Shown: positions 371 to 37,503 of the stretch, one piece after another
How the letters are laid out: every line of letters begins with the position of its first letter
How positions within the stretch are numbered: position 1 is the first letter of the stretch
Source: Rhodocyclaceae bacterium
GTDB taxonomy: Bacteria; Pseudomonadota; Gammaproteobacteria; Burkholderiales; Rhodocyclaceae
Assembly (NCBI GenBank): GCA_024709955.1
Contig: JANJVS010000121.1
Span: forward strand, 1 to 37,622
DNA length: 37,622 bases
Direction: 5' to 3'
The notes under the pieces: model-generated
What the model was told of the DNA's origin: nothing
The model's input: the letters and a program-made list of their open reading frames with translations, nothing else
Databases searched by the model: none
Program-made: the position numbers and the translations under genes

Positions 371-1762
371 TCAGGGTTGCAGCGCCTTCAGCCGCGTGGC
401 GGCGAGGGCCGGATCGAATCCGGCGGGCCGTTGCGACGCTGCGCTGATGGCTTGATTGTAATACTGGGCCGCCAGGCGCGCCTGGCGCAGCTGGTCCAGG
501 CTCACGGCGAGGTTGAACAGATAGTCGGGGTTGCCGGGATCGGCGACGTGGGCCTTGAAATAGGCCTGCTGGGCGTCGGCCCAGCGGCCGTCGCGGGCCA
601 ACAGGTTGCCGAGCACGAAGTTGAGGGGCGGCGAGTCGGGCTGCTCGGCCAGCAGGGTCTTGAGCCGGCTCTCGGTCTGTTGCGGATCGGCCTGGCCGCG
701 CAGGGCGATCAGGCCGGAAAGGGCATGCGCGTCCTTCGGGTCGGCCTCGATGGCGCGCAGATAGTAGTCGGCGGCGCGCTCCGGCTGGCCGCGCCGCTGG
801 GCAACGGCGGCGAGGCCGTGCAGGGCGTCGGCGTTCTTCGGGTCGGCCTGCAGGATCTTCTGCCAGGCGGCCTGCGCCAGATCGGCGTTGCCCTCGTTGA
901 AGGCCTGGAACGCCTGCTCGAACAAGGGGTTCGGTTTCCGCGGGGCGCTGCTGATGCGGATCGGCCCTTCCTTGCGCGGTTGCGTCGCGGCGGGAGGCGG
1001 CGCGGGCGGCTTCTCCGCGCGCCGGGGCGGCGGCGGAGCCTCCTCGTCTTCGCCCTCCGGGCCGGGCGGGGACGTCGCGGACGGGGCGACCGGCGGCGCA
1101 AAAGTCGGCGTGACCGCAGGGACTCCCTGTGGGACTGGCGGGACGGTGGCGGCCGGCGGCGTCGGGGCGGCCGCGACGGGTGCGGGGGCCGCAGCGGACG
1201 GCGCCGGCCGGCCGGGCGCGGGCGGGACGACGAGGCTGCTCCTGGGCTGCAGTTGCCACCAGAAATAGCCGCCGATGCCGGCGACGGCGAGGAGGGTCGC
1301 CAGGCCGGCCGCGATGGCGAAGCTGCGGCGGCCGCGCTCGCGCGGCTGCTTGGCGGAAAAGACCTGGCGCGCGGCGGCGCGGGAGGCCTCGCCGTCACCG
1401 TCCGGGGCGAGCGAGAGTCCTGCCGGCTGTCTGGCGGCCGGGGCGGGGCGCGCGTCCGCCGCGGCGGGAGGCTCCGGGGCCGGCGCGCCGCGCGCGGGGG
1501 CCGCCCGGGCGGCTGCCTTGGCCTCCGCGGCGTGGGCCATGAACTGCTCGTCGAGTTCCTCGAGGCGGCTTGGCAGTTCGGGAAGGCGGCTGGCGCCGGA
1601 CTTGGCGGCGGGCGGGATGGGCGTTTCCGCGCCGTCGGGTGGCGTGGCCATGGGTTCGAGGGCCAGCCCCGCGCCCGGCGTTTCCGGCGTTCCCGCTCCG
1701 GCCGCGGCGGCTTGCTGCTTCTGCTGCTCGGCCTTGCGCAGCGCGTCCATCAGCAGGCTCAC
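371..1762 (-). CDS. mshN: MshN-like TPR protein of the MSHA/T2SS locus
   Basis: 463 residues. The start MSLLMDALRKAEQQKQQ is characteristic of the MshN/GspB-type inner-membrane partner. A long Ala/Pro-rich cytoplasmic stretch is followed by one membrane helix (about 147-169, ending GGYFWWQL), a very Pro-rich periplasmic linker (about 175-260), and TPR repeats from about 280 to the end (for example AFNEGNADLAQAAWQKILQ and GQPERAADYYLRAIEADP). The start is GTG and overlaps the mshL stop in a GTGA tetranucleotide (1759-1762), which indicates translational coupling. Residues 206-223 of the linker carry a split copy of the dispersed repeat described elsewhere. Role inferred from family and context: a scaffold connecting the ATPase platform to the secretin. 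Confidence 0.85.
   Translation of the reverse strand: MSLLMDALRKAEQQKQQAAAAGAGTPETPGAGLALEPMATPPDGAETPIPPAAKSGASRLPELPSRLEELDEQFMAHAAEAKAAARAAPARGAPAPEPPAAADARPAPAARQPAGLSLAPDGDGEASRAAARQVFSAKQPRERGRRSFAIAAGLATLLAVAGIGGYFWWQLQPRSSLVVPPAPGRPAPSAAAPAPVAAAPTPPAATVPPVPQGVPAVTPTFAPPVAPSATSPPGPEGEDEEAPPPPRRAEKPPAPPPAATQPRKEGPIRISSAPRKPNPLFEQAFQAFNEGNADLAQAAWQKILQADPKNADALHGLAAVAQRRGQPERAADYYLRAIEADPKDAHALSGLIALRGQADPQQTESRLKTLLAEQPDSPPLNFVLGNLLARDGRWADAQQAYFKAHVADPGNPDYLFNLAVSLDQLRQARLAAQYYNQAISAASQRPAGFDPALAATRLKALQP
1098..1149 (-). repeat. Dispersed repeat copy 1, interrupted by 24 bp
   Basis: On the plus strand GCAAAAGTCGGCG (1098-1110) and CTGGCGGGACGGTGG (1135-1149) are the two halves of the dispersed repeat in minus orientation. 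They join exactly if the 24 bp at 1111-1134 are removed. The extra 24 bp keep the mshN frame and contain the palindrome CAGGGAcTCCCTG (1117-1129). Confidence 0.7.
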
Positions 1763-3573
1763 CGCTTGGCGCTCCCGAAATCGAAGACCTGGCGCGGCTG
1801 GCCGACCGCGTCCTTGGCGAAGAAGTCCTGGCCGGGTATCTGGTCGCGGTATTCGGCGTAGTCGCCCTGGATGCTCGGATCCTTGATGATCACCGGCCGC
1901 AGGAAGACGACCAGCTCGGTCTTGGTGTGGGTGTCGTTGCGGTTCTGGAACAGGTTGCCGATCAGCGGGATGCCGGCCAGGCCGGGCACGCCTTGGTCGC
2001 TGTTGTCGACGCTGTCTTCCATCAGGCCGCCCATCACCGCGACGCTGCCGTTATCGACGCGCAGGATCGACTCCATCTCGCGCGTGCGGATCACCGGGAT
2101 CTCGTTCTTGATGCCGAGCTTCTGCAGCTCGGGGTGGGGATCGACGACGGTGCCGTACTTGCGCGAGATGCTCGGGCGGATGTTGAGCAGCACGGAATCG
2201 TTGCCGCTGATCTGCGGCGTGACGTTCATCACCAGGCCGACCGGCACGGAGTAGAGGTTGGTGGTGTAGGTGGTGGTGGTCGAGGTGTTGCTGGTCGCCG
2301 TGTCCGCCTTGATGGTGAAGTAGGCGAGGTTGTCCACCACCTTGAGCATGGCGGTTTGGTTGTTGAGCACCGAGAGCTTGGGGCTCGACAGTACCTTGAC
2401 GTTGCCATAGTTCTCCAGCAGCTTGAGGGTCGCCGAGAACACGCCGCCCGAGGACGAGACGTCGCGGATGCCGAGGGTGAACAGGCCGGCGCCGGTGATG
2501 CTGGAGCCCGCCTGGATCAGGCTCAGCCCGGAGGCGAGCGAGTCGGCGCGCACGCGGCTCCAGTCGATGCCCTGCTGGTAGTTCTGCGACAGGGTGACCT
2601 CGGCGACCGTGGCCTCGATCAGTACCTGGCGGCGCGCCGAGGCCATCACCTGGTCGAGGAATTCCTGGATTTTCTCGTGCTGGCGGGCGGTGGCGCGCAC
2701 ATTGAGGATGCCGGTCTCGGGATTGACGATCACCGATGCGGCTTCGCGGAAGGTGGAGCGGCGCGTCACCGTGGTGCCGCTCTGCTGCAGGGTGGCGGGG
2801 TTGGGGCTGACGGCGATGCCCTGGGCGGCGCTGCCGGCGTTGCGCCCGCTCGCGGCGGGCGGCGGCACGCCGGTGCCGGTGGTGGCCTGCTGGTCCTGAC
2901 GCTCGACGGTGGTTTCGCTGGAGCCCTCGGGCAGCACCTTGTCGGTCTCGCGCAGGATGTCCTTGATGTTCTTTTCGAGGGTTTCCCAGAAGCGGTTCTG
3001 CGCCTTGTTCTCGATCTTCGTCAATGAATTGTTGCCGCCGCCGGTGCCGCCGCCGGTGCCGCCGGCGGCGGCACCGGTCGAGGCGATCTGGGTGGTGACC
3101 GCGACGGTGCCGCTGGTGTCGCGCGACATGTTGACGTAATCGACCTTGTAGGTGCGCAGGAAGGGCGAATCGGGCATCACGGCGAGGTTCGGTCCGTCGA
3201 GCTCCCAGCGCAGGTCGGCCTGCTTGGCGATGCGGGCGAGCAGCTGCTGCAGGGTCTGGTCGATCGCGTTGAGGGTGATGCGGCCGCCGATGTTGGGGTG
3301 GATATCCACGTTCAGCTTGGCGTCGCGGGCGAGGGCGAACAGCAGTTCCTTGACCGGCACGTCATTGACGACGACGCTGTAGGTTTCCGTCTTCGGCGCG
3401 GCCCTGGGCTTGGGCGGGGCGAGCACCTGCTGTACCGGCGCGGGAATGTCCACCGTCCCGCCGGCGCCGACTTTTTCGGCCCGCAGGTGGCTGTTGCCGG
3501 GCGCCTGGACCGGGGCGTTGCTGCAGGCGGACAGGAGCAGAGCGAGCGCCGGGATGAGTAGCTGTCTTTTCAT
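1759..3573 (-). CDS. mshL: MshL-type outer-membrane secretin (lipoprotein)
   Basis: 604 residues. The N-terminus MKRQLLIPALALLLSAC has a type II signal with lipobox ending at Cys17. An STN/N0-like region (VVVNDVPVKELLFALARDA) is followed by a Gly/Thr-rich low-complexity linker (GGTGGGTGGGNN, from a CCGGTGCCGC-type microsatellite at about 3030-3078) and a C-terminal secretin domain with VPGLAGIPLIGNLFQNR and VAVMGGLMEDS, both hallmark secretin motifs. It forms the outer-membrane channel through which the pilus or substrate passes. It has the usual length for MshL. The dispersed repeat sits in frame just after the lipobox, encoding [10 protein letters not shown] 117-bp AT-richer gap separates it from mshM, so it may have its own promoter. 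Confidence 0.9.
   Translation of the reverse strand: MKRQLLIPALALLLSACSNAPVQAPGNSHLRAEKVGAGGTVDIPAPVQQVLAPPKPRAAPKTETYSVVVNDVPVKELLFALARDAKLNVDIHPNIGGRITLNAIDQTLQQLLARIAKQADLRWELDGPNLAVMPDSPFLRTYKVDYVNMSRDTSGTVAVTTQIASTGAAAGGTGGGTGGGNNSLTKIENKAQNRFWETLEKNIKDILRETDKVLPEGSSETTVERQDQQATTGTGVPPPAASGRNAGSAAQGIAVSPNPATLQQSGTTVTRRSTFREAASVIVNPETGILNVRATARQHEKIQEFLDQVMASARRQVLIEATVAEVTLSQNYQQGIDWSRVRADSLASGLSLIQAGSSITGAGLFTLGIRDVSSSGGVFSATLKLLENYGNVKVLSSPKLSVLNNQTAMLKVVDNLAYFTIKADTATSNTSTTTTYTTNLYSVPVGLVMNVTPQISGNDSVLLNIRPSISRKYGTVVDPHPELQKLGIKNEIPVIRTREMESILRVDNGSVAVMGGLMEDSVDNSDQGVPGLAGIPLIGNLFQNRNDTHTKTELVVFLRPVIIKDPSIQGDYAEYRDQIPGQDFFAKDAVGQPRQVFDFGSAKR
3451..3480 (+). repeat. Dispersed repeat copy 2 (inside mshL)
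   Basis: CACCGTCCC followed by GCCGGCGCCGACTTTTT in plus orientation. It is read antisense by mshL as EKVGAGGTV in the linker after the lipoprotein cysteine. Confidence 0.85.
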
Positions 3574-3615
3574 GTCGTGTCCGTGGGGTGGCCCGGGGAA
3601 TTGACGGTCAAGTTG

Positions 3616-3643
3616 ATCGTAGCACGTGAGGTTTTCGGTGCAA
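3616..3643 (-). promoter_or_regulatory. Candidate sigma70 promoter for mshL
   Basis: On the minus strand TTGCAC (3638-3643) and TACGAT (3616-3621) are separated by 16 bp, in the only AT-richer gap of the locus. The -10 lies about 43 bp upstream of the mshL ATG. No sigma54 GG/GC element was seen here, although the locus encodes a sigma54 activator. Predicted by eye only. Confidence 0.35.
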
Positions 3644-3690
3644 CCAATTGATATTTCTGGCGTTGGTTTTGTTGAAATTGTGTTGCGAAC

Positions 3691-5160
3691 TTACCTCAAC
3701 CGGACCGTGGAGCGGGCGTAGGGGCGGCTCGACTTGAGCGCGGCCGGCAAGCTTTCCAGTGCCTTAACGGCATCCCGGCGCGAAGCATAATCCCCGTAAA
3801 TGATGCCGTAGCGCGCCGACCCGCTCAGGTTCGAATGGTAGGCCCTGAGCTCGGACATGTCCGCCCCGGCGTCGCGGAGACGGACGAGGTGGGCCTCGGC
3901 CCGTTCGGGGCGGGTGCCATCCAGGGTGTAGAGCTGGATGAACCAGCGGTCGGCGGCCACCGACTCCAGCCACTGCCGGCTGGCGGCGAGCGTCCGGTCG
4001 AGCAGCGGCGTGGCGGTCGGCGGGGCGGTCGGCGGGGCGGCGGAGGCCGCGGGCCGGTCGGGAGCGGGCGGGGCGGTGGCGGACTCCTCCGGGGCGGCCA
4101 GGGCCGGTTCCCGTGCCGCGGGCGGCGGCGCCGGGGGCGCGGCCGCGGCCTGGTCCGGTGCGGGCGGAGGCGGGCTTGCCGCCGCCGCTGCTACCGGGCC
4201 GATGGCGCTGTCGGGGGCCGGAGCCGGCGCGTGGGCCGCGGGCTCGGCCAGCAGGCGCCAGGCGCCGATCAGCGCCAGCACGGCCAGCGCCCCGCCGCCC
4301 GCCCAGAATGCACCCGCCGGCACGGCGGCGCGGCCGGCGCGGACGGCGGAGAATTCTGAGTCCTGGATCGCCGCCTTGACCTCCTTGAGGCCTACCTGGT
4401 GGCCGCCGGCCGCGAAGGAGGCCAGCAGGGCCTTGTCGGCGAGGATGTTGATGCGCCGCGTGAGCCCCAGCGAGACGTCGGCGATCAGCTTGACGGCGGC
4501 GGGGGCGAAGACGCTCGGGCCGCGGTAGCCGGCCGCGCGCATGCGGAAGTCGAGGTACTGGGCGATGTCGTCGCGCACCAGCGGTTCGAGGTTGAAGTTG
4601 TGCGTGATGCGCTCGCGCAGCTGACGCATGTCGGGGCGCGCGAGGGTGTCGTTGATCTCGGGCTGGCCGAACAGCACCAGCTGCAGCAGCTTGTGGCGGC
4701 TCGATTCGAGGTTGGAGAGCAGGCGGATTTCCTCCAGCGTCTCCTTCGGCATCGCGTGCGCCTCGTCGATCAGGACGACGACCTGCTTGCCCTCGGCGTA
4801 GAGCGCCACCAGCTTCTCCTGCAGCAGGCGCAGCACGGCGCTGGCGCGGCCGTGGTCGGGCACGGCGATGCCGAGTTCGTCCGCGAGGGCGTAGAGGATG
4901 TCGTCGCGCGAGAGCGAGGGGTTGGCCAGATAGACGATCACCACGTTGTCCGGCAGGCGCTCCATGAGCACGCGGCAGAGCATGGTCTTGCCGCTGCCGA
5001 CCTCGCCGCTGACCTTGACGATGCCTTCGTCGTGGGTGATCGCGTAGACCAGGGCCTCCAGCGTCGTGCCGCGGTTCGCCCCGGCGAAGAAGAAGTCGGT
5101 GTGCGGCGTGATGCGGAAGGGGGCTTCCGCCAGGCCGTAGTGTTCCAGGTACATGGACAT
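3691..5160 (-). CDS. mshM: MshM/ExeA-like AAA ATPase with C-terminal SPOR-like domain
   Basis: 489 residues. The start MSMYLEHYGLAEAPFRITP is typical of ExeA/MshM ATPases. Walker A is GEVGSGKT (52-59), Walker B VVVLIDEA (127-134), followed by arginine-rich sensor segments (QLRERITHNF). A single membrane helix (about 283-303) is followed by a long Pro/Ala-rich periplasmic linker and a SPOR-like domain (WFIQLYTLDG ... YGIIYGDYASRRDAVKAL), which would bind denuded peptidoglycan. The likely role is energised placement of the secretin in the cell wall. It starts 7 bp after the regulator stop, so the two are co-transcribed. An in-frame ATG two codons downstream is an alternative start. Confidence 0.85.
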   Translation of the reverse strand: MSMYLEHYGLAEAPFRITPHTDFFFAGANRGTTLEALVYAITHDEGIVKVSGEVGSGKTMLCRVLMERLPDNVVIVYLANPSLSRDDILYALADELGIAVPDHGRASAVLRLLQEKLVALYAEGKQVVVLIDEAHAMPKETLEEIRLLSNLESSRHKLLQLVLFGQPEINDTLARPDMRQLRERITHNFNLEPLVRDDIAQYLDFRMRAAGYRGPSVFAPAAVKLIADVSLGLTRRINILADKALLASFAAGGHQVGLKEVKAAIQDSEFSAVRAGRAAVPAGAFWAGGGALAVLALIGAWRLLAEPAAHAPAPAPDSAIGPVAAAAASPPPPAPDQAAAAPPAPPPAAREPALAAPEESATAPPAPDRPAASAAPPTAPPTATPLLDRTLAASRQWLESVAADRWFIQLYTLDGTRPERAEAHLVRLRDAGADMSELRAYHSNLSGSARYGIIYGDYASRRDAVKALESLPAALKSSRPYARSTVRLR

Positions 5161-5167
5161 GATGGGC

Positions 5168-6673
5168 CTACCTCGGTGGCTCGTGGCTGCCCGGCTCGCC
5201 CGTCCGGCCGCGGGCGAGGCTGTCCAGGCGGTTGTAGAGCGTGGTGCGGTTGATGCCGAGCAGACGCGCGGCCTGGCTGATGTTGCCGTGGGCGAGACGG
5301 CGCGCCGCCTCGATATAGGCGTCCTCCCAGCGCAGCAGCGTGGCGTCGAGGCTGAATTCGGCGCTCTCGGACAGCTGGCGGCGGGCGCATTCGATCAGGC
5401 TTTCCCGGTCGCCGGCGGCGGGGCCGGGCAGGGCCGCCGGGCCGGCGTCGGCGGGCATGGCGGGATCGAATTCCTCGCGCAGGTCGGCGGCGGAAACCGT
5501 TGCGCCGGCGTGGCGCGTCGCCAGGCGGATGACGATGTTGCGCAGCTCGCGCACGTTGCCGGGGAAGCCGTAGGCGAGCCAGAGCGCCTCCGCCTCCGGC
5601 GTCAGGCGGAAGGGCGGCTGGTGGAACTGGGCGGCGATCTGCTGGCGGAAGTGCTCCAGCAGGCGTAGCCGGTCCTCGCCGAGCTCGCGCAGGGGCGGCA
5701 CGGCGACGCTGAACACCGAGAGCCGGTGGTAGAGGTCGGCGCGGAAGCGGCCGGCGCGCACCTCCTGCTTGAGGTCGCGGTTGGTCGCCGCGACGACGCG
5801 CGCCCGCGACTGGCGCGGCTGGGTTTCGCCGACGCGCTGGTATTCGCCGTTTTCCAGCACGCGCAGCAGCTTGGGCTGCAGTTCGAGGGGCAGTTCGCCG
5901 ATCTCGTCGAGCAGCAGCGTGCCTTCGCCGGCCTCCTCGAAATAGCCGGCACGGCTGCCGCTGGCGCCGGTGAAGGCGCCCTTGGCGTGGCCGAACAGCG
6001 TCGGCTCGACCAGCGTCGGGGCGATCGCGGCGCAGTTGAGGGTCAGATAGGGATGCGCGCGGCGCAGCGACAGCTGGTGCAGCGCGGCGGCGGCGAGTTC
6101 CTTGCCGCTGCCCGACTCTCCTTCGATGAGTACCGGGAAGGGCGAATCGGCGTACTGCCGGAGTTGGGCACGCAGCTTCTGCAGTGCCAGGCTTTCGCCC
6201 AGCATCGGCAGCACAGCAGCGGGCGCCGCCTGGCCGCCGAGGTCGAGCAGGCGCAACAGCAGTTCGCGCAGCTGGCCCGGAGCGGCCGGTTTGGCGACGA
6301 ACTCGACGGCGCCGAGGGCGCGGGCGTGACGGGCGTTGGCTTCGTCGTTCTGGCCCGAAAGGACGACGATGCGGATCGCCGGAGCGCTCGCCAGCAGCTC
6401 GCTGACGAGGGCGAATCCCTCCTGGGGGCGGTGCGGCGTGGGCGGCAGGCCAAGGTCGATCAGGGCCAGCGGCGGCGGTTCGCCTTGGGCGCGCAGCCAT
6501 GCGATCGCCGCCGGCCGGCTGCCGGCCGTCGCCACCTGGAAGTCCTCCCCGAGGTAATAGCTCAGGGTGTCGGTGATCAGGGGGTCGTCGTCAACGACGA
6601 GGAGCGCCGGCTTGCCGGCGGCAGGCGCGGGATCGGGCGGCTCGGGGACGGTGCTGCCATCGTCGCAGTGCAT
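5168..6673 (-). CDS. Sigma54-dependent response regulator (NtrC family)
   Basis: 501 residues in three domains. The receiver domain (about 22-140) has the acidic pair in VVDDDP, phosphoacceptor Asp73 in LIDLGLP and Lys128 in FVAKP. The AAA+ sigma54-interaction domain has Walker A GESGSGKE (185-192), a complete GAFTGA loop (232-237) and Walker [11 protein letters not shown] (251-260). The C-terminal Fis-type helix-turn-helix reads [21 protein letters not shown]. An intact GAFTGA means it should activate sigma54 promoters. No partner histidine kinase is in the window. It heads the mshM operon and is divergent from mlaF. A TATGAT box at 6682-6687 would put the transcript start almost at the ATG, so the leader is very short or the promoter is elsewhere. 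The PrsR-type (exopolysaccharide) regulator family is an alternative assignment. Confidence 0.85.
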
Positions 6674-6786
6674 AACGCGCGATCATAGTCGATGCACCTG
6701 GCCTCCTGGGTCTGAAAAAAGGGCTATCCCCGGCCCATTTGACTCCCTGCCATCGGGTGGGACCGCGGAGCGGCGATCGGCTTGGG

Positions 6787-6792: not shown

Positions 6793-6821
6793 GCCCGGTC
6801 CGATTTCCAGCCGTCATCCCC

Positions 6822-8431: not shown

Positions 8432-8433
8432 TG

Positions 8434-12259: not shown

Positions 12260-13781
<1,522 letters not shown>

Positions 13782-18998: not shown

Positions 18999-19027
18999 CA
19001 CCGTCCCGCCAGCGCCGACTTTTGCCC
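18999..19027 (+). repeat. Dispersed repeat copy 4 (fills the hisA-hisF gap)
   Basis: CACCGTCCC then GCCAGCGCCGACTTTTGCCC, a perfect consensus copy occupying 29 of the 32 bp between the hisA stop and the hisF ATG. No Shine-Dalgarno remains for hisF. Confidence 0.9.
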
Positions 19028-21224: not shown

Positions 21225-21623
21225 ATGTTCGACGTCGGCTTTTCCGAACTCATACTCATCGCCCTGGTGGCCCTGATCGTCATCGGCCCGGAACGGCTGC
21301 CGAAGGTGGCGCGCACCGTCGGCCATCTGCTCGGCCGCCTGCAGCGCTACGTGAATGACGTGAAGTCGGACATCAACCGCGAGATGCAGATCGACGAACT
21401 CAAGAAGCTGCAGGAGCAGGTGGACAGCCAGGCGCGCGACATGGAGCGCCAGGTCAACGAACAGCTGTATACGGTCGAGACCTCGCTGAACGCCTCGCTC
21501 GTCCAGGGCCTCGGGGACAAGACGGAGCCGGTCGCCGACGCCACCGCCGGCACCGACGCCACCGTCCCGCCAGCGCCGACTTCTGCCGCCGCCCCGGCCG
21601 CCGCCGACAAGCCCGCCGCCTGA
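21225..21623 (+). CDS. tatB: TatB, Sec-independent translocase substrate receptor
   Basis: 132 residues starting [20 protein letters not shown], with the conserved [13 protein letters not shown] hinge, a charged amphipathic/coiled-coil region and an Ala/Pro-rich C-terminus. The dispersed repeat encodes TVPPAPTSA in that tail. It binds twin-arginine signal peptides with TatC. The stop overlaps tatC by one base. Confidence 0.95.
21560..21587 (+). repeat. Dispersed repeat copy 5 (inside tatB)
   Basis: CACCGTCCC then GCCAGCGCCGACTTCTGCC, one mismatch in the T-run. Read in frame as TVPPAPTSA in the disordered TatB tail. Confidence 0.85.
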
Positions 21624-26296: not shown

Positions 26297-27043
26297 ATGC
26301 TGCGTGAGGAATTGGTCGCGTATCTGGAGGGGGTGCTGGAACCGGCACGCTTCCGCGATTATTGCCCAAACGGGCTGCAAGTGGAAGGACGCGCGGAGAT
26401 CCGCCGCGTCGTCTGCGGCGTCACCGCGAGCCAGGCGCTGATCGAGGCGGCGGTCGCGCGCGGCGCCGATGCGTTGCTGGTGCATCACGGCTGGTTCTGG
26501 AAGGGCGAGGACGGCCGCGTCACCGGCTTCCGCAAGAAGCGCATGCAGGCGCTGCTGGCCCACGACATCAACCTGCTCGCCTACCACCTGCCCCTCGATG
26601 CCCACGCGGAATTCGGCAACAACGCCCAGCTCGGCAGCCGTCTGGGGTTCGCCGTCACCGGCCGCTTCGCCGAACAGGACATCGGCTTCGTCGGCGTCCC
26701 GCCGGCGCCGACTTTTGCCCGGGACATCGCGGCGCGCGTCGAGGCCGCCCTCGGCCGCGCCCCACTGCTGGTGGGCGACGGCGCGCGTCCGGTGGCCAGG
26801 GTGGCCTGGTGCAGCGGCGGCGCGCAGGGCTATTTCGAGCAGGCGATCCTCGCCGGCGCCGACCTGTTCGTCAGCGGCGAGATTTCGGAGCAGACGGTGC
26901 ATCTGGCGCGCGAATCCGGCGTGCCCTATCTCGCCGCCGGGCACCACGCGACGGAGCGCTACGGCGTGCAGGCCCTGGGCGCCCACCTGGCCGAACGCTT
27001 CGGCCTGGCGTGCGAATTCGTCGAGATCGACAATCCGGTTTAG
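26297..27043 (+). CDS. NIF3-like dinuclear metal-binding protein
   Basis: 248 residues, Nif3/YbgI family. Conserved metal ligands are in [27 protein letters not shown] and [14 protein letters not shown]. The biochemical role of the family is unsettled (GTP cyclohydrolase-like fold). It is divergent from the DegQ gene with only 29 bp between, as in many betaproteobacteria. The dispersed repeat encodes VPPAPTFA in a loop (about residues 134-141). The stop overlaps the stop of the convergent FimV-like gene. Confidence 0.9.
26696..26719 (+). repeat. Dispersed repeat copy 6 (inside nif3-like gene)
   Basis: GTCCC then GCCGGCGCCGACTTTTGCC, without the leading CACC. Read in frame as VPPAPTFA. Confidence 0.8.
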
Positions 27044-28042: not shown

Positions 28043-28582
28043 TTAGCCGGGTTTGAGCCGGTCGGCGAACTTCTGGCGCAGCTTGGCGACCTTGGGCGCG
28101 ACGACGGCCAGGCAATAGCCCTGTTCCGGGTTGCGCAGGTAGTAGTCCCGGTGGTATTCCTCGGCCGGCCAGAAAGTCGGCGCCGGCAGGACGGTGGTGA
28201 CGATGGGCGCCGGCCAGGCGCGGGAGGCGGCCAGCTCGGCGATCAGCGCGCGGGCGGCGGCTTCCTGTTCGGCGGAATGGGTGAAGATCGCCGAGCGGTA
28301 CTGGCTGCCGATGTCGTGCCCCTGGCGGTCGGGCGTGGTGGGGTCGTGGATGGCGAAAAAGACGCCGAGCAGGCTGCGGTAGTCGATGACCGCCGGATCG
28401 AACTCGACGCGCACCACCTCGGCATGGCCGGTGGCGCCGTTGCAGACCTGCTGGTAGGTGGGGTGCTCGACCGTGCCGCCGCAATAGCCGGACGTGACGG
28501 CGTGTACGCCGGCGAGCTGCTGGAAGGCGGCTTCGAGGCACCAGAAGCAGCCGCCGCCGAGGGTCGCGATTTCCCTTGCCAT
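28043..28582 (-). CDS. msrA: MsrA, peptide methionine-S-sulfoxide reductase
   Basis: 179 residues. The catalytic motif GCFWC (Cys12) is followed by GYCGGTVEHPTYQQVC and HAEVVRVEFDP. It reduces methionine-S-sulfoxide in proteins. The region before PAEEYHRDYY is encoded by the dispersed repeat (TVLPAPTFW), replacing a usually variable stretch. It starts 9 bp after the methyltransferase stop, probably the last gene of the paaK operon. Confidence 0.93.
   Translation of the reverse strand: MAREIATLGGGCFWCLEAAFQQLAGVHAVTSGYCGGTVEHPTYQQVCNGATGHAEVVRVEFDPAVIDYRSLLGVFFAIHDPTTPDRQGHDIGSQYRSAIFTHSAEQEAAARALIAELAASRAWPAPIVTTVLPAPTFWPAEEYHRDYYLRNPEQGYCLAVVAPKVAKLRQKFADRLKPG
28171..28197 (-). repeat. Dispersed repeat copy 7 (inside msrA)
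   Basis: AGAAAGTCGGCGCCGGCAGG then ACGGTGG on the plus strand. Minus-oriented copy with AGA in place of the usual CAA. msrA reads it as TVLPAPTFW. Confidence 0.75.
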
Positions 28583-28591
28583 GGCAATCTC

Positions 28592-29341
28592 CTATGCGCG
28601 GCCGGCGCGCAGCGCGATGGGCCAGACGATCTCGCGCACCGTCGCCGGTTCGCCCCAGAGGGGGCGCAGGCGGGCGAAGAGCGCGTGGGTCGGGTCCTGC
28701 CCGGTCTCGGCCAGGCAGCGCTGCACGGCGGACCAGGTGCCAATGTAATTCACCAGGTCGGCCAGCGTCCAGCGCAGGCGAATCTCGAAAGTCGGCGCCG
28801 GCGCGACGGTGGCGAAGGGAAAGGGCATGCCGACATAGCCGAGCTCGACCCAGCGCCGCTGCGGCGGCCACCAGGGCGTCAGCACCTCGGCGTAGAAGGT
28901 CTCGATGGCGGCGTTGATTTGCGGCTCGCCCCGCAGCAACGTGTAGGTCCAGGCGGCGAGCAGGCCGCCGGGCCTGAGCACGCGCCGCGCCTCGGCGTGG
29001 AACTTGTCGAAGTCGAACCAGTGGATCGCCTGCGCCACCGTGACGAGGTCGCAGCAGGCATCCGGCAGACCGCTCGCCTCGCAGGGCGCGGCGCGGTATT
29101 CGACGCGCGGATGGCGCTGCGCCTGGTCGATCTGGGCGATGGAAAGATCGGTGGCGACGACGCGCCGGAAATGCCGGGCCAGCGGCACGGCGGCCTGGCC
29201 GTTGCCGCAGCCGACGTCCCAGGCGAGCTCGCGGCCGGGCGCGCGGTCGGCGAGCCAGGAGAACAGCGCCTCGGGATAGCCGGGCCGGTATTTCGCGTAA
29301 TCGGGCGCCTGACGCGAGAAGTGGTCGGTGCCCGGCGCCAC
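28592..29341 (-). CDS. Class I SAM-dependent methyltransferase
   Basis: 249 residues, GTG start. SAM-binding motif I LAWDVGCGNGQAAVPLA, motif II acidic residue in VVATDLSIAQ, post-motif VAQAIHWFDFDKF. It resembles trans-aconitate/Crg1-like small-molecule methyltransferases (start FSRQAPDYAKYRPGYPEALF). Substrate unknown. One base separates the upstream stop from this GTG. The dispersed repeat encodes TVAPAPTFE in the C-terminal half. Confidence 0.85.
   Translation of the reverse strand: MAPGTDHFSRQAPDYAKYRPGYPEALFSWLADRAPGRELAWDVGCGNGQAAVPLARHFRRVVATDLSIAQIDQAQRHPRVEYRAAPCEASGLPDACCDLVTVAQAIHWFDFDKFHAEARRVLRPGGLLAAWTYTLLRGEPQINAAIETFYAEVLTPWWPPQRRWVELGYVGMPFPFATVAPAPTFEIRLRWTLADLVNYIGTWSAVQRCLAETGQDPTHALFARLRPLWGEPATVREIVWPIALRAGRA
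28787..28814 (-). repeat. Dispersed repeat copy 8 (inside methyltransferase gene)
   Basis: GAAAGTCGGCGCCGGC then GCGACGGTGG on the plus strand, with one difference (GCG for GGG). Read in frame as TVAPAPTFE. Confidence 0.75.
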
Positions 29342-29342
29342 C

Positions 29343-31269: not shown

Positions 31270-31614
31270 CCGCGCATTTTCGCAAAAACCGGCAATCTAC
31301 GGGTGGGTCTGGCAAAAGTCGGCGCTGGTGGGACGGTGGGCTGCGGTCTGTTGAGATGGTCCGTTGTCTTCTGGAGCCAAAGGTATGTTTCTGGGCGGAG
31401 CAGTCATGCAGCGCGGTGAATTGCGGGCAACTGTTCGGCCAATGCGGTCACCCAGTGCTTGCCGCCCGAACGGCGGCAACCTGGGGCACTGCCGCCATTT
31501 GCTCTTCTTCGTTGAGAAATAGAATCGGTGACGAGCAATCGACTGATGTTGAGACCTCATGAACGCCGACCGTACCGAGTCTGTGCAGTGGGCTCAACGT
31601 CCGTTCGACCCTGC
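31270..31614. other. Intergenic region paaK / KAP gene
   Basis: 345 bp. GC-rich sequence up to the repeat copy at 31311-31339, then lower-GC sequence belonging to the accessory segment. Short open frames on both strands have no ribosome-binding site or family resemblance. I see no terminator with a T-tract. Confidence 0.5.
31311..31339 (-). repeat. Dispersed repeat copy 9 (left edge of low-GC segment)
   Basis: GGCAAAAGTCGGCGCTGG then TGGGACGGTGG on the plus strand, one mismatch. Minus orientation. It marks the point where base composition changes. Confidence 0.85.
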
Positions 31615-34600
31615 TCAAGACGGGTTCGTCGGAAACTGATCGGGCTCCGCCTCAACCGCTGTTGCTTCGTTGGCCAATTCATCAAGTACGGCGAAAACTC
31701 CAGCCAGATGTTCGCGATACGAAGCTATGTGGTTAGATTTGACTACCTGCCTCTCTTCGACGTGCAGGACTCGTTGGCGAATGAATTCCCCGCGCTGACT
31801 CCAGTACCGTCCCATAGCCTTTGGATCAAGTCCTCCGGGAAGTTCAGCCTTGGATGCAAAGTAGCCCTCCTCGTCTCCGCCTGAAAAGAAAGAGTTGCTC
31901 AAGTGCGACAGGCAGTGGTCGAGGAAATGAAAGACATTGTCCTCGTTGATGTCGGGGTTGAAACAGTGGCCAAACGCGTACTCGTTCATCCGCTGTGCTA
32001 TTCCGCCACCGTCGCCGGTGCCAGACTCGTCGTAATACCCGCAGCCCACACCTGCCCCAGTGGGGGGCAGCGAATTGCTCAGTTGGTAAATCACGAAGGA
32101 TTTGACGACAGTGCGTGCCGAGGAAACGCTCTGAGCAAGCGAGGCGCTACCTTGCTCAGATTGATCGTCCCTTGACGCCTGCAGGGCAAGCCGAGACAAA
32201 GCTTCGCCTAGAATCGATTCAATAGGGGTATCGCAAACCTCTGAAAAGAAGTTTCGTCGTGGATCAATATAGGCTCGCTTAAAGAGTGCGAAAACCTCCT
32301 GAGACAGCCTTCTCATTCCCATCAAAGCGAGATTACTGACCAAACCATTTGTCGCAGCACTTCTATCCTGATAGACGATTAGTGCCGAATGCAGGTTGTA
32401 CAACTGTCCCTGACGATCTGCAGAGCATTGCAATCTGAACAACATGAGATCGTTCCAGCCGAGGACGCCGCGATCGTCGCTGGCAAGCCGTTGAAGTAGG
32501 CCTTTCCCCTCGTAGGAGCGTTCGCCGAAAATCCGCCATGCAATCTCTATGACATTGTCCGGAGTATTGGGGGGACGACGACCCGATGCCCGCCCCCAAC
32601 CAACTCGATCCAAGAGTCGCAGCAGCGAGTAGATCGACCTCTGCCGCAAACCTCGATCATCATTCGAAATAGTCGAGTAGCGCGGCAGATAATCGATGAG
32701 CGTATAGATGGCATCTTCGGCTACCGCGTGAGTGAAGTCATGAGACTGATTGACGAGCACCCTCCAGAACTGGTCATGTGCGTTCTCGCCGCGCTCCAAT
32801 CGAAAGTCAGACGACGTCAGAACTGAAGCAATGGCCTCTCCCTTTCGAACTCTCTCCACCGCATCCTGGTACAGAACAAATGTTTCCTGCGGCTCAGGTG
32901 TGGCAAACCGCACAATGAGCTTTAGATACCCCTCCAGATTCCTGAAGGAGTCCTGGTTGAAGCAAGCACGTGACGCCAAGACCGCCTCATCTACATTTAC
33001 CCCTCGGCCTCCAAGCTTCAGAGTTGTCACGTCGAAAAGCTGCATCAAAAGGAAATTTGCGTGTTCTTGTTGCCCTGCCACCAGAGTTGAGAACTCATCA
33101 GAGTTCTTGAACTGAAACCCATGTTCCTCGTATTTGCGACGCACCGAGAAGGTTCCGCAACGTCCCTCCGTCTCTTCGGCGTAAATGCGCCTGAACAACC
33201 CAGGGTAGTTCAGATGCAAAAGTATGAGGTTGATGAGGTCACGTTTATTGAAGTCGGTCCGACCTAAGTTGCTCCTCTCAAGCTGCATGAGCAACATGGC
33301 GTTGACGAAGCGCTTCACCTTGCGCAGATCCCCAACTAGGGGCATGTATTTAGCTGCCAAGTTACTGTCAAGAATGCTCGCCAATTCGTTGAGCACGGCG
33401 CCGAGCTTCATCATAGTGTCGGAAGGAATCGAGCCTAGTTGGTTGTCTGCGCGTTGCCAGTCCCTGACTAGGAAGTCGCGAATGCTGGAACTGTCGACGA
33501 ACAAGCTCAGCTTGACCGTCACAAACTTCTCAAGGAACTCACGCGCCCTCGAACCATCTTCCGTGCCTCCGGCAAGTATCTCCGTGTCGTAGCAGAGGAC
33601 ATAGGTAGCCTGAGAAAGCTTGAACGTGCGTCGCGTTGCGAACAGAACGTTGTTGATAGTTTTCGCGTCCAATCGATCCAGATCGTCGATGACGATAATC
33701 ACACGGCGGCCGATCCGCCTAAGCACCTCGTCTATGTCATCAAGCAGCTCATCAACGGATTCCTGCGACGGCTCCAAGGAAAGCTTGAAGCCTAGAAACG
33801 AAAAATCAGCCTTTCCTTTGATCAGCCGGGCGTACCGCGATGCCGCCGGCCGAAACTCTGGAGCAAAGACCTTTCGTTGAATCGCGGCGGACAAGTCGCG
33901 AATCAAGCGGTCCGCCAGATCAGGCTCTGATGCATATCGAAGGGGCTCGAAACGACAAACTATGGCCACGTCTTCTTCACATGCCCAGTAACGCTCAGCG
34001 AGGTTGATGAAGCTTGTCTTGCCGACACCCCACGGCCCATCGACCCCAAAGACAAGCCCCTGGTAGGCACCGCTTGCGAGAACAGTCTTCGCGAACGACT
34101 TGGCTTGCGCCTCGCTCGCAAGCAGATCTTCTTTCTCATCTCGGATTTCCTCATCCGTAATGAAGTATCTCTGTGGAGCTATTCTTTTTGGCCTCGGCAA
34201 GTATTGTTGAAACAATGGCGACAACAGTATGGTGCAGAGCAGAAGGAAGACCGCTAGCGCCCAATGAGGGTCCGCATTCTTGAGTGCTGCGTGGGCATTG
34301 GCTAGCCAGGGCAAGGCCAACTCATTTATCCAGATGCCGATGCAGATGAAGATCAGAAGTTCGAAACGGAAACTGCGACCCATTCGTGCGGCGGTGAGGT
34401 GCGCTCCCCGCTTGGCAGCATAAGCCATACATAGCAGTGCTCCGAGCAGCAACACAGATATCTGAACCCAGAGGGCTACGTCAGACAGTATCGGAGAGAA
34501 ATTCGCACCAAGGTAAAAGGCAACTCGCCAAACCTCCGCACCTACGAAGCCGACGGCGAGTAACCTACCGAAGATCAGCAACTCAGGCATCTTCATCGCT

Positions 34601-34617
34601 GGCTTGGTAGCTGTCAT
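31615..34617 (-). CDS. KAP-family P-loop NTPase, membrane-anchored, candidate defence gene
   Basis: 1000 residues. Four N-terminal hydrophobic helices (about 13-33, 44-66, 85-105 and 118-137) precede the KAP NTPase domain with Walker A GPWGVGKTS (194-202), Walker B RVIIVIDDLDRL (305-316) and DLRKVKRFVNAMLL. The C-terminal 500 residues are not recognised. GAGAGGA just upstream fixes the start at the ATG 34615-34617. KAP proteins include plasmid PifA (phage exclusion) and QatA of the Qat defence system; no QatB, C or D genes are here. Codon use and GC differ clearly from the neighbours, so recent transfer is likely. Function as anti-phage protein is inference. Confidence 0.85.
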   Translation of the reverse strand: MTATKPAMKMPELLIFGRLLAVGFVGAEVWRVAFYLGANFSPILSDVALWVQISVLLLGALLCMAYAAKRGAHLTAARMGRSFRFELLIFICIGIWINELALPWLANAHAALKNADPHWALAVFLLLCTILLSPLFQQYLPRPKRIAPQRYFITDEEIRDEKEDLLASEAQAKSFAKTVLASGAYQGLVFGVDGPWGVGKTSFINLAERYWACEEDVAIVCRFEPLRYASEPDLADRLIRDLSAAIQRKVFAPEFRPAASRYARLIKGKADFSFLGFKLSLEPSQESVDELLDDIDEVLRRIGRRVIIVIDDLDRLDAKTINNVLFATRRTFKLSQATYVLCYDTEILAGGTEDGSRAREFLEKFVTVKLSLFVDSSSIRDFLVRDWQRADNQLGSIPSDTMMKLGAVLNELASILDSNLAAKYMPLVGDLRKVKRFVNAMLLMQLERSNLGRTDFNKRDLINLILLHLNYPGLFRRIYAEETEGRCGTFSVRRKYEEHGFQFKNSDEFSTLVAGQQEHANFLLMQLFDVTTLKLGGRGVNVDEAVLASRACFNQDSFRNLEGYLKLIVRFATPEPQETFVLYQDAVERVRKGEAIASVLTSSDFRLERGENAHDQFWRVLVNQSHDFTHAVAEDAIYTLIDYLPRYSTISNDDRGLRQRSIYSLLRLLDRVGWGRASGRRPPNTPDNVIEIAWRIFGERSYEGKGLLQRLASDDRGVLGWNDLMLFRLQCSADRQGQLYNLHSALIVYQDRSAATNGLVSNLALMGMRRLSQEVFALFKRAYIDPRRNFFSEVCDTPIESILGEALSRLALQASRDDQSEQGSASLAQSVSSARTVVKSFVIYQLSNSLPPTGAGVGCGYYDESGTGDGGGIAQRMNEYAFGHCFNPDINEDNVFHFLDHCLSHLSNSFFSGGDEEGYFASKAELPGGLDPKAMGRYWSQRGEFIRQRVLHVEERQVVKSNHIASYREHLAGVFAVLDELANEATAVEAEPDQFPTNPS

Positions 34618-34918
34618 CTATTCCTCTCCCGTGGTGCGGCGCAATCTCGTCGCGCACTCGCCAAAACTGTAGCCATAGTTTGTAGCACTCTACACGAGTG
34701 CAACTGGCATACCGCCTCAACGTCGGCAACCTGCGAGACACCGGCCATTCTGCTAAGTCAGCACCAATGGCGGCAAAGGCCGAGGTGCCGAAGTAGATCA
34801 TCCGACAGGTTTCGGAGCGGGTCAGACCCTCGGCTATCGCTTGCGGACAGAGACAGGCTGCTCGGTTGTGGTTAGACGCCGCCTTCCCAACCTCCCTGGC
34901 CCACTCGCCGTACGCCAA
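34583..34918 (-). CDS. Doubtful small open frame upstream of KAP gene
   Basis: 111 codons from a TTG (MAYGEWAREVGKAASNHNRA) preceded by AGGAA, overlapping the KAP start by 35 bp. No family recognised; composition is Arg-, Cys- and Trp-rich. The ribosome-binding site and the overlap favour a real leader gene, while the TTG start and lack of homology argue against it. Confidence 0.25.
   Translation of the reverse strand: MAYGEWAREVGKAASNHNRAACLCPQAIAEGLTRSETCRMIYFGTSAFAAIGADLAEWPVSRRLPTLRRYASCTRVECYKLWLQFWRVRDEIAPHHGRGIDDSYQASDEDA
34685..34701. promoter_or_regulatory. Small inverted repeat upstream of KAP gene
   Basis: GCACTC, spacer TACAC, GAGTGC: a perfect 6-bp dyad 68 bp upstream of the KAP ATG. 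It could be an operator; there is no direct evidence. Confidence 0.3.
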
Positions 34919-34940
34919 GACGAGTTCCTGTCAGACCAAG

Positions 34941-34970
34941 CACCGTCCTGCCAGCGCCGACTTTTCCGCC
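34941..34970 (+). repeat. Dispersed repeat copy 10 (right edge of low-GC segment)
   Basis: CACCGTCCTG then CCAGCGCCGACTTTTCC, one to two mismatches. Plus orientation, inverted with respect to copy 9. It ends 28 bp before the stop of the paaK tail fragment. Confidence 0.85.
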
Positions 34971-34998
34971 GCCCTTGCTGCGTTCCCGACTTCGGCGC

Positions 34999-35245
34999 TT
35001 ATTTGGGCCGCGTGTCGATGACGCGCTTGGGCTTGCCGACCGAGCGCTCGATGGCGCCGGCGGCCTTGATCTCGACGCGGATCGAGATGCCGACGTAGGA
35101 CTTGATGTGGTACTGCAAGTCGTGGGAGACGTATTCCTCCTCGGCGGTGGCGGCGGCGGTGGCGTGTTCGGGCTTGATCTCGACATTCACCGCCATCGAG
35201 TCGAGGTGGCCTTCGCGGCTGACTTCGGCTGGCAATGCGGCGCGC
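34999..35245 (-). pseudogene. Decayed 3' fragment of a phenylacetate-CoA ligase gene
   Basis: The minus strand encodes EVSREGHLDSMAVNVEIKPE and continues to KRVIDTRPK and a stop, matching the last ~75 residues of PaaK (full copy: EVDRKGHMDDLTVRVELKPE). Nucleotide similarity continues a little upstream through a one-base deletion (cggctgg against cagctgg), then ends next to the ECF sigma stop. The rest of the gene is missing. It is more similar to the paaK tail at the window's right edge than to the full copy. Confidence 0.8.
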
Positions 35246-35267
35246 GCCAGCTTGGACACGCGATGAC

Positions 35268-35828
35268 TCAGGACTTGCGATCACATCGATATACGCCCTC
35301 GTCGTCCCGATAGAAGGCACATTGATTCCGCAGGGCCTCCTTGAGGCGCTGCCTCGCCCGGTGGATTCTGATCTTCGCGCTCCCGATCGTGCATTGGCAG
35401 ACTTCGGCGGTCTGCTCGATTGACAGCTCTTCCAGGTCATACAGGATGAGCGCGGCGCGATAGGTGTCCGGCAAGCTGTCGATCACCTGGCGCACGCATT
35501 GATTCATCTCGTCCTGGATGACACGCTTCTCGATCGGCGGTTCGGGGTCTTCCATGTCGCGGGCTTCATCGAGATCCACGATGAGCCTGCGGCGTTCCGA
35601 CTGGCGGAAATAATCGGAGGCGACACGGCTGGCGATCGCGAACGCCCACGTTTTGACCGAGGAACGCCCGTCGAAGGAGTCGAAATTCTTGCTTACCCGC
35701 AGCAGGGTTTCCTGCAGCAAATCCTCGGCCAGCGCGCGGTTCCCGACATAACGCTCGAGATAGCGCAGAACGGGCTGGCCGATCTCGGGAAGGATGGCAT
35801 CTAGGTTGGCGGACAAATTGGCCTCCAT
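35268..35828 (-). CDS. ECF-type RNA polymerase sigma factor with cysteine tail
   Basis: 186 residues. Sigma2 region (AEDLLQETLLRVSKNFDSFD, SSVKTWAFAIASRVASDYFR) and sigma4 region (LYDLEELSIEQTAEVCQCTIGSAKIRIHRARQRL-type HTH). The C-terminal tail CAFYRDDEGVYRC (Cys170 and Cys182) is an addition seen in some ECF groups and could sense metal or redox state. No anti-sigma gene is adjacent. Neighbouring AhpD-like and metallo-hydrolase genes share a promoter-like motif, so they are the likely targets. Confidence 0.9.
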   Translation of the reverse strand: MEANLSANLDAILPEIGQPVLRYLERYVGNRALAEDLLQETLLRVSKNFDSFDGRSSVKTWAFAIASRVASDYFRQSERRRLIVDLDEARDMEDPEPPIEKRVIQDEMNQCVRQVIDSLPDTYRAALILYDLEELSIEQTAEVCQCTIGSAKIRIHRARQRLKEALRNQCAFYRDDEGVYRCDRKS

Positions 35829-35933
35829 GTTTCATGTGAATTCAGCATAGCCCGAATCCGGCGAGGATCGTGGCCTTGCGCGAAGCGGATTGCAGGCAGC
35901 CGGCCGCGCCCCAGGCCGGCCCGCGCAAGACCA

Positions 35934-35965
35934 GGACCAGCGCGGCGCCGCCGCCGCGCTGGTCC
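35934..35965. terminator. 14-bp perfect hairpin between AhpD-like and sigma genes
   Basis: GGACCAGCGCGGCG (35934-35947), loop CCGC, CGCCGCGCTGGTCC (35952-35965). It lies in the 209-bp gap between the AhpD-like stop and the sigma ATG. No T-tract on either side. It may terminate or attenuate read-through into the sigma gene. Confidence 0.6.
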
Positions 35966-36037
35966 GTCGTCGGGTCGAATCGCCGCGCGGCTTTCATGGC
36001 GGCGGTGCCCGGCGCCCGGCCGTCGCCATGCCGCCGC

Positions 36038-36322
36038 TCAACAGCACCGCGCGGCTGTCCGGTGCAGGTCGGTACATTGCATGGCTTCGGGCGCCACGGC
36101 ATCCGTCCCGCCGCCCGTCGCCGCCAGGGCCGCGCGGAGCACGTTGCGCGCGGGCACCTGCCGGACCTTGTCCGCGAGCTCAAGCGCCGCGCGGATTTCA
36201 TCGTCGGTCAGTCCGGCGCGGCGTGCCTCCGGGATATGGTGATCGATGCACGGCACGCAATTGCTCGCCAGGGCCGCCGCAAGGGCGACCAGTTCCTGTT
36301 CGCGTTGCGTCAGTGGTTCCAT
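36038..36322 (-). CDS. AhpD/carboxymuconolactone decarboxylase-family protein
   Basis: 94 residues from the ATG at 36320-36322 (MEPLTQREQELVALAAALAS), with AAAGGA upstream as ribosome-binding site. The active-site motif NCVPCIDHH (Cys22, Cys25, His28/29) is that of AhpD-like peroxidase/disulfide reductases. The C-terminus ends in two cysteines (RTAARCC). A likely peroxide or redox function, matched to control by the adjacent ECF sigma factor. Confidence 0.85.
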   Translation of the reverse strand: MEPLTQREQELVALAAALASNCVPCIDHHIPEARRAGLTDDEIRAALELADKVRQVPARNVLRAALAATGGGTDAVAPEAMQCTDLHRTAARCC

Positions 36323-36381
36323 TTGTTTTCCTTTCATTCCAGTTGGGCTTGTGCAATGGGGCGCGGATCGCCCCGCCTTCC

Positions 36382-36411
36382 TTAGACGCGATCGGGGGGC
36401 GTTGGGATACA
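36382..36411 (-). promoter_or_regulatory. ECF-like promoter of the AhpD-like gene
   Basis: On the minus strand TGTATC (36406-36411), 17 bp, then CGTCTAA (36382-36388), about 60 bp upstream of the ATG. The identical pair with identical spacing precedes the metallo-hydrolase gene. CGTC-type -10 elements are typical of ECF sigma factors. Confidence 0.65.
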
Positions 36412-36428
36412 CCCCCGACAAGGGCGTG

Positions 36429-37349
36429 CTACTCGGCGAGCGCCAGGACATCCCGGGCGCTGTCGGAGAGCCCGAATCGCCCTTTGTCGTCGCGGATAAT
36501 CCGTCCCATGCCGATCGCCGGGTCGTGCGGAAACACGAGCCGGCCGTTGCGGGCCAGGAGATCGTTCAGCAGGATCGTCTTCTCGTCGATCAAGCCTTCG
36601 GCGCAACGGTCGTAGCCCATCGTGATCGGGAGGTGTACCCAGGGCGCGCCGGGAATCAAATCACCTCCGAATACGACCGGTCCGGCGGGCATCGGGATTT
36701 CCGGCAGGAGCTGCCCCGGCGTGTGCCCGTCGCTGAAGTGAAAACGCCAGTCGGCACCCAGCGTGGGCGTCTGCTGGCCGGCATCGATCAATTCGAGGCG
36801 CTGGCTTTCCTCCAGCAGGTCCAACAGTTCGGGAATGAAGGAAGCGCGGTCGCGCGAATGCGGGTTGCGGGCCCGCATCCATTGGCGCCGGCTGGTGATG
36901 AAGGTCGCGTTGGGAAACAGCAGGCGGGGCGCGGCCCCGTCTTCCCAGGCGGCGAGCAGCCCGCCCGCGTGGTCGAAGTGCAGGTGGGTGAGAATCACGA
37001 CGTCGATATCGGCGTCGCTCAAGCCCAGGTCGGCCAGGCGCTGCAGCAGGACATGCTCCGCTTCTTCAACGCCATAGCGCGCCTTCATTTCCGGGCTGAA
37101 GAACGCGCCAATGCCGGCTTCCACCAGGATGTTCCGTCCGCTTTCCCGAACCAGCAACGCCCGGCAGCCGAGGTGGATGCGGTTCTGGCTGTCGGCGTCG
37201 AACCAGCGCTGCCAGAGGCTGCGGGGAGCGTTGCCGAACATTGCCCCGCCGTCGAGCTTCTGCGTGTTGCCGTACAGGGTGGTGAGGGTCCGCCGCGGCA
37301 GGCCGTTGGCTGTCGGCGCGGTCGTATGCGTGTCTGCGTGTCGCTGCAT
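36429..37349 (-). CDS. Metallo-beta-lactamase-fold hydrolase
   Basis: 306 residues. Metal-binding motif [10 protein letters not shown] (His122, His124, Asp126, His127), later ligands in [14 protein letters not shown] and [10 protein letters not shown], and a final His in [13 protein letters not shown]. It resembles the lactonase/quorum-quenching and similar MBL subgroups. No signal peptide, so cytoplasmic. AAAGG lies 8 nt before the ATG. A large dyad and an ECF-like promoter precede it. Substrate unknown. Confidence 0.85.
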
Positions 37350-37363
37350 GGGTTGTACCTTTC

Positions 37364-37407
37364 TCTAATGATGGCGAGAAGACATTGGGAACTTCTCGAT
37401 CATTAGA
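37364..37407. promoter_or_regulatory. Bipartite dyad in the metallo-hydrolase leader
   Basis: TCTAATGAT (37364-37372), GG, CGAGAAG (37375-37381), a 10-base loop, CTTCTCG (37392-37398) and ATCATTAGA (37399-37407). This makes 16 paired bases with a GG bulge. It overlaps the CGTCTAA element and the transcript start, so it could be an operator or an mRNA hairpin next to the ribosome-binding site. Confidence 0.75.
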
Positions 37408-37432
37408 CGTGGCGACCCATGGCTGAGATACA
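37403..37432 (-). promoter_or_regulatory. ECF-like promoter of the metallo-hydrolase gene
   Basis: On the minus strand TGTATC (37427-37432), 17 bp, CGTCTAA (37403-37409), about 54 bp upstream of the ATG. Same motif and spacing as upstream of the AhpD-like gene. Confidence 0.65.
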
Positions 37433-37480
37433 GCCCGACCCGCGCCCCGGCCGGTCGCGGCGCCACCGGGCGTGCGCCGC

Positions 37481-37503
37481 TCCGCCAGCGCCGACTTTTC
37501 GGC
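37481..37503 (+). repeat. Dispersed repeat copy 11 (beside the edge paaK tail)
   Basis: TCCGCCAGCGCCGACTTTTC then GGC, lacking the CACCG part. It ends 5 bp from the stop of the paaK tail, the same arrangement as copy 10. Confidence 0.8.

Follow-up and report, generated by a model that had tools for sequence, protein, structure and literature searches.

Which process could place the same short sequence at eleven sites of one stretch of bacterial DNA, within unrelated genes and between them, and keep the copies alike? The stretch, hereafter the window, comprises positions 1–37,622 of contig JANJVS010000121.1 from a Rhodocyclaceae bacterium (assembly GCA_024709955.1), and the element is a non-palindromic 25-mer, hereafter the tag. 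Hundreds of dispersed 25-bp copies that lie close to a single consensus in each genome, that have changed in place at certain coding sites, and that vary in concert between lineages constitute a phenomenon whose existence stands apart from any interpretation in terms of DNA uptake. As to its nature, our best reading is that the tag may be a third, longer uptake-type tag beside the DNA uptake sequence (DUS) and the uptake signal sequence (USS). We assign a probability of about 0.48 to the element being a genome-wide, lineage-specific DNA self-recognition tag of this kind.

A sharply bounded 25-mer with 700 copies in one genome

An alignment of 93 copies from this genome revealed a sharply bounded motif, CACCGT-NNN-GCC(A/G)GCGCCGACTTTT, of about 37 bits. 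The consensus reads CACCGT CCC GCC(A/G)GCGCCGACTTTT, with abrupt edges and almost no information outside them; information content is 36.0 bits in coding copies and 36.0 bits in intergenic ones. The initial annotation of the window described a repeat of about 28 bp, and the repeat is real, its bounded motif being 25 bp, as the trailing GCC holds only about 0.1 bit per position.

The whole genome, a metagenome-assembled genome (MAG) of 3.51 Mb in 237 contigs, contains 700 matches (365 + 335) with up to three mismatches over the 22 specified positions, and the reversed pattern, our control, has none; the more than 1000 copies anticipated earlier were too many. In a 437.6-kb sample, made up of the window and 20 further 20-kb stretches of this genome, we found 93 sites with zero to three mismatches versus about 0 in ten fourth-order Markov simulations. 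Sites with zero to four mismatches numbered 29, 32, 23, 9, and 3, with Markov expectations of 0, 0, 0, 0, and 0.8, while the next classes were near chance (9 versus 5.5 expected for five mismatches, 22 versus 28 for six). A strong excess of a non-palindromic motif, read in either orientation, also characterises DUS and USS.

Dialects and distribution among relatives

The motif is not missing from relatives, as it would be if the earlier idea of a widespread element were wrong: 17 of 18 congeners carry it, with 105–692 copies each. No tag copies were found in the congener G005, an 87% complete genome (G and L numbers are our labels for genomes and loci; the present genome is G000). A protein tree of the one region around hisF places G005 within the genus, on a long branch beside the tag-bearing G006 (support 0.94), although such branches can mislead. 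In a survey of 395 family genomes, our own included, using the CRCC form with at most two mismatches, 57 genomes spread over eight genera had at least 27 copies and were called tag-bearing; the remaining 338 had 0–15, and the reversed pattern never exceeded one per genome. Exact matches on named contigs (80 of 119 stretches) came mostly from Rhodocyclaceae and Rhodocyclales MAGs among the matches listed. From those 80 stretches we picked 20 genomes, 18 of which hold 243–737 copies, including three Sulfuritalea (580, 660, and 376), a Rugosibacter (398), a Sulfurisoma (482), and a Propionivibrio MAG (737); a Thiobacillus MAG had 10 and a Rhodoferax 1.

In some tag-poor genomes the residual copies are clustered (G139:C1:1461265-1502267, G139:C1:1147696-1169448, G112:C50, and G113:C104), as if they lay in segments acquired from tag-rich donors. 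Exact matches also occur in some IMG/VR viral contigs (103 stretches), which are possibly proviruses of tag-bearing hosts. With a 31-base query, the best plasmid matches were two from Mycobacterium with 22 identical bases (E 0.01), and the best among phages were seven records at E 0.8; all of these were counted as chance.

Lineages differ in how the tag is written. The first bases are CA in 83 of 94 copies of this genome, TG in 56 of 58 copies of G017, and CG in 29/31 copies of G026 and 20/23 of G157, with a CG/TG mixture in G003 and G011. Because G017 uses TG, a search of it with the CG form gave a single match. At five of the six window loci with orthologous tags, the copy here starts with CA, and A occupies that base in 0 of 32 orthologous copies, which begin with CG or TG. 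Lineage dialects that shift in concert are likewise known from DUS and USS.

Two further genera clearly use more divergent dialects. The G102 form is GCGTCGACTTTT and that of G028 is CGCCGT...GACTGACTTTT; patterns fitted to G102, G028, and G040 (at most four mismatches), which were chosen after seeing the same data, found 14, 13, and 11 sites versus 1, 0, and 1 in controls. The ends alone (YRCCGT-N12-GACTTTT, at most one mismatch) found 12, 12, and 6 sites versus 0, 0, and 1 (samples L419-L422, L485-L488, and L501-L504, respectively). The tag system may extend beyond what the survey pattern detects, with the same ends and another centre in these three genomes. Two sites in an 80-kb sample of G036 match at the ends only, and no sites were found in samples of G059 and G117 (80 kb each) or of G021, G033, G037, G139, and G110 (20 kb each). 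In G117 (L497-L500), 12-mers around TGCCGTTGTGGCAG, distinct from the tag, occur 13 times in 80 kb.

Change in place at orthologous sites, and signs of insertion

For 76 copies around hisF, 21 genomes were compared; the resulting 804 ortholog comparisons are not independent, as one locus is often repeated. The tag was present (at most four mismatches) in 481 of them; where it was absent, the site had near-unchanged length (20–30 bp) in 128, more than 30 bp in 61, 9–19 bp in 26, and 8 bp or less in 108. The clearest case is hisC, in which 12 genomes are tagged and seven have another sequence of identical length, a pattern that on the protein tree looks like several losses, allowing that long branches can mislead. 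The nif3 gene is untagged at the same length in three genomes (G005, G006, and G021). Coding copies of a mobile repeat should be insertions facing an empty site, and this was not what hisC and nif3, the sole two clear coding sites, displayed. On the earlier question of insertion versus point-wise conversion the data point two ways, with change in place at these genes and change of length at the one intergenic gap compared, hisA-hisF, where extra length accompanies the tag in several comparisons; indels accompany it in the murA and tatB linkers as well. In 294 ungapped orthologous comparisons (58 copies), the tag was 91.5% identical versus 76.1% for its flanks, a figure inflated by the requirement that both sides be tagged; it was more identical than the flanks in 278 comparisons and less so in 12.

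These data bear on a copy-spreading repeat, in which the 25-mer would be duplicated ectopically by recombination, or by template-driven overwriting of partly similar sequence, with no benefit to the cell. The shorter hisA-hisF gap of several untagged genomes and the 108 comparisons with at most 8 bp left agree with it, and so does the bimodal mismatch distribution, while the ungapped change at hisC and nif3 does not. Aligned copies display neither a flank signal nor a duplicated target, and an insertion burst is not expected to replace a dialect genome-wide at shared sites.

The same activity could have produced two kinds of composite found here. Close pairs of tags are mostly units of about 100 bp, composed of a tag, a hairpin, and a tag. 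The hairpin has 10 matches in the sample of this genome, of which the six printed are all tag-flanked on both sides. No match was found in stretches sampled from other genomes; among other loci, L143 has a similar unit with tags and L176 has the hairpin without them. These units look insertion-like and are possibly a mobile element with the tag as its boundary. At L352:18733-18969 (G000 contig C113), tag, hairpin (GGCCGC..CTTAACC..GGTTAGCC..CGAAAGTCGG), spacer, and tag follow one another, with two units in tandem. In split copies, a 24-bp palindromic insert lies exactly after base 14 of the tag; five occur in the sample, including window positions 1100-1148, L347:9200-9248, and L347:11824-11872. 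In G011, a 39-bp insert follows the same base twice (L316, in murA, and L427). Taking both sides together, we consider a copy-spreading repeat unlikely as an explanation of the tag.

Orientation, spacing, and position in genes

The possibility of strand or replichore bias, raised in the initial annotation, was addressed in the complete genome G017 (20 stretches, 52 copies). Plus and minus copies numbered 10/4 at positive GC skew (seven stretches), 10/8 at negative skew (six stretches), and 9/11 near zero, so that orientation did not reverse with skew; a sample of this small size rules out strong polarity only. Gap variation, with copies within 300 bp merged first, was below random in seven of eight genomes (p 0.003 in G017 and 0.017 in G011; not significant in the other six). 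If the tag served chromosome organisation or segregation, being recognised by a nucleoid protein and kept by selection at hundreds of places, this would account for the somewhat even spacing, for copies in both orientations in coding and intergenic sequence, and for maintenance in place. We nonetheless hold this option to be quite improbable given the orientation data, the lack of copies in G005, and the 0–15 copies in 338 of the 395 family genomes; moreover, selection acting on each site separately would hardly shift the dialect of hundreds of copies together.

Coding calls were made with a simple codon-based predictor of open reading frames (ORFs), which called 88% of the sequence coding and overlooked one or more long ORFs in the window. 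On this basis, 51 of the 96 copies in the sample (at most four mismatches) are coding, 41 intergenic, and four partly overlapping a gene. Intergenic copies are thereby enriched about 3.5-fold (41/96 versus 12% non-coding sequence), which, with the occurrence of some copies in hairpin units, would suit a signal for transcription, for instance a terminator or a regulator site. That explanation is very improbable, as the 25-mer itself is non-palindromic and 51 of the 96 copies lie inside predicted genes in both orientations.

The coding copies had been said to use two peptide frames only, which was too strong: 34 of 51 are read so, as TVPPAPTF (12) or KVGAGGTV (22), and the other 17 use two further frames, HRPASADF (7) and KSALAGR (10). 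The last two frames, which are arginine-rich, are used by none of the 51. Since the consensus, read directly, has no stop in any of the six frames, this bias points to peptide tolerance.

Copies in the window

The tag was confirmed at each of the 11 positions first reported, six on the plus and five on the minus strand, and one of the copies is split by a 24-bp insert. A search of the window with a 16-mer (at most three mismatches) gave 11 matches versus 0.84 expected; the copy at 1098 is not among them, being split there, and a match at 26852 was rejected as a tag copy because the full 25-mer is not present. The seven gene names given earlier (mshN, mshL, murA, tatB, nif3-like, msrA, and methyltransferase) agree with the Pfam assignments: a tetratricopeptide repeat (TPR) protein, a secretin, an EPSP-synthase family member, TatA/B, NIF3, PMSR, and a methyltransferase.

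The split copy (1100–1148, minus; 14 bases, the palindromic insert, and 11 bases) is in frame in the mshN-like TPR gene. Two copies are antisense to their genes: one in the mshL-like secretin gene (3451–3475, plus; peptide KVGAGGTV) and one in murA (12719–12743, minus; KVGAGETV), the latter at the same place in most aligned congeners. The hisA-hisF copy (18999–19023, plus) is absent from several congeners, whose gap is shorter. A further copy lies near the 3′ end of tatB (21560–21584, plus; TVPPAPTS), and another in the NIF3-like gene (26692–26716, plus), which has untagged sequence of equal length in the three genomes given above. Those in msrA (28172–28196, minus) and in the methyltransferase gene (28787–28811, minus) are read as TVLPAPTF and TVAPAPTF. 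The predictor places the last three copies in intergenic sequence: one upstream of an AMP-binding enzyme gene (31314–31338, minus), one at 34941–34965 (plus), overlapped by an unassigned ORF at 34931–35440, and one near the contig end (37475–37499, plus).

A candidate uptake tag and its reader

Among the options of the initial annotation, an uptake tag fits best because the copies are dispersed and non-palindromic, have no strong replichore polarity in one complete genome, follow a frame bias of peptide tolerance, change in place at hisC and nif3, and form concerted dialects; a mobile repeat is not supported at those two genes, and a segregation site is unsupported. Concerted dialects together with change in place would require a reader plus a copying process, and we prefer transformation with biased uptake because it would supply both and has a known precedent. 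A trans-acting reader, for which a minor pilin of the type IV pilus at the cell surface is the most plausible candidate, would bind the tag and favour tagged DNA during transformation. Homologous recombination would then copy tagged alleles into the genome, tags would build up in those parts of proteins and spacers that can accommodate them, and the dialect would drift together with its reader.

Several observations weigh against an uptake tag. Sites with four to six mismatches barely exceed chance, tag density is about 1 per 5 kb, below that of DUS and USS, and all 12 pairs less than 400 bp apart are direct, none inverted. The hisA-hisF gap is often, not always, shorter without the tag, with other lengths in some genomes, and some intergenic copies, such as the one in this gap, look insertion-like. 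The competence genes add to these points. The ComEA-type HHH_3 domain exceeded the Pfam cut-off in two of 27 tag-bearing genomes (G121 and G203; G040 counted as tag-bearing) versus eight of 21 tag-poor ones, or nine if G105 is included, which reaches the cut-off only together with its neighbours. This count leaves out a G037 match in a 1107-aa frame and proteins of about 800 aa, which we take to be Tex; the two such HHH matches checked both have an S1 domain. HHH_3 was not found above the cut-off in the single-contig genomes G017 and G126, and G002 and G009 have weak matches below it. The ComEA model cut-off was passed by two of 22 tag-bearing and three of 14 tag-poor genomes. The ComP-like pilin linked to ispH in this genome has a tail that was matched in 24 of the 32 tag-bearing genomes tested and in 15 of the 28 tag-poor ones, and ComP_DUS and GspH/FimT occur in 28 and 27 of 30 genomes regardless of the tag. 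Tag-bearing G102 had neither ComP_DUS nor GspH matches, and tag-free G005 retains ComEC and a ComP-like pilin.

ComEC itself was found in all 30 genomes tested, tag-poor ones included. With ComEA mostly below the cut-off or undetected, the classical uptake pathway is not assured, although a divergent ComEA could have escaped detection. The present genome has a minor pilin locus of ispH, a pilE/ComP-like gene, a fimT-like gene, and pilV. As candidate receptors, ComP_DUS, GspH/FimT, and the ComP-like pilin tail were rejected by family presence, as none separates tag-bearing from tag-poor genomes. Our confidence stays near one half because ComEA was not detected in most tag-bearing genomes tested and no receptor was found. 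A fuller version of the self-recognition reading is tentative and rather doubtful. In it, a tag shared by several genera of one family has constant ends (CRCCGT...GACTTTT) around a dialect centre, would be recognised by machinery distinct from canonical competence, and would be rewritten in place genome-wide; the idea of another reader comes from the lack of detectable ComEA in most tag-bearing genomes.

Comparison with known systems

To our knowledge, DUS and USS have been reported for Neisseriaceae and Pasteurellaceae only. In the open-licence literature we found no paper on DNA uptake sequences in Rhodocyclaceae or Rhodocyclales and none on a dispersed repeat in Sulfuritalea; two papers on natural competence in Rhodocyclaceae are, by title, not on the tag motif, and one of four 12–13-base motif strings occurs, once each, in four papers with plant titles. 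Rhodocyclaceae, as a third such family, would offer tag-rich lineages next to tag-free ones, different dialects, and what looks like a total loss (G005), and would allow comparative tests of how tags arise, spread, and find a receptor. If the tag does not serve uptake, some other process keeps hundreds of 25-mers in step.

Passages in three papers describe in-place evolution, dialects, and permissive sites for DUS and USS (PMC3630211, PMC1939737, PMC2397512). For Neisseria, the abstract of one of them (PMC2397512) describes numerous recent DUSs as too different from the homologous sequence, and one of its sections is titled 'DUSs arise by recombination'; as far as this passage goes, it would fit the scarcity of tag intermediates here.

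As such accounts present it, the DUS of Neisseriaceae resembles the tag in being non-palindromic, in having hundreds to thousands of copies both within genes and between them, in its lineage dialects, in conservation within more divergent flanks, and in its use of permissive sites. It differs in being 10–12 bp long at about 1 per 1.1 kb, compared with 25 bp at about 1 per 5 kb, and in often forming inverted pairs that act as terminators, whereas the 12 close tag pairs are direct; its receptor is known to be ComP. The USS of Pasteurellaceae, by the same kind of account, has a full motif of about 31 bp with a short core and evolves in place by point mutation, as the tag may do; unlike the tag, it occurs about once per 1 kb, with AT tracts beside a core of AAGTGCGGT or ACAAGCGGT. 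Like the tag, the USS also shows a reading-frame preference.

Repeats of the repetitive extragenic palindromic (REP) and miniature inverted-repeat transposable element (MITE) types, and the Rickettsia palindromic element, are dispersed and short, some of them within genes. Such repeats are similar to the tag-hairpin-tag units found here, but the 25-mer is non-palindromic, is not an insertion at hisC or nif3, and follows genome-wide dialects. Segregation sites of the KOPS/matS type are likewise many and dispersed; the tag is much longer and has no strong polarity in the one complete genome sampled.

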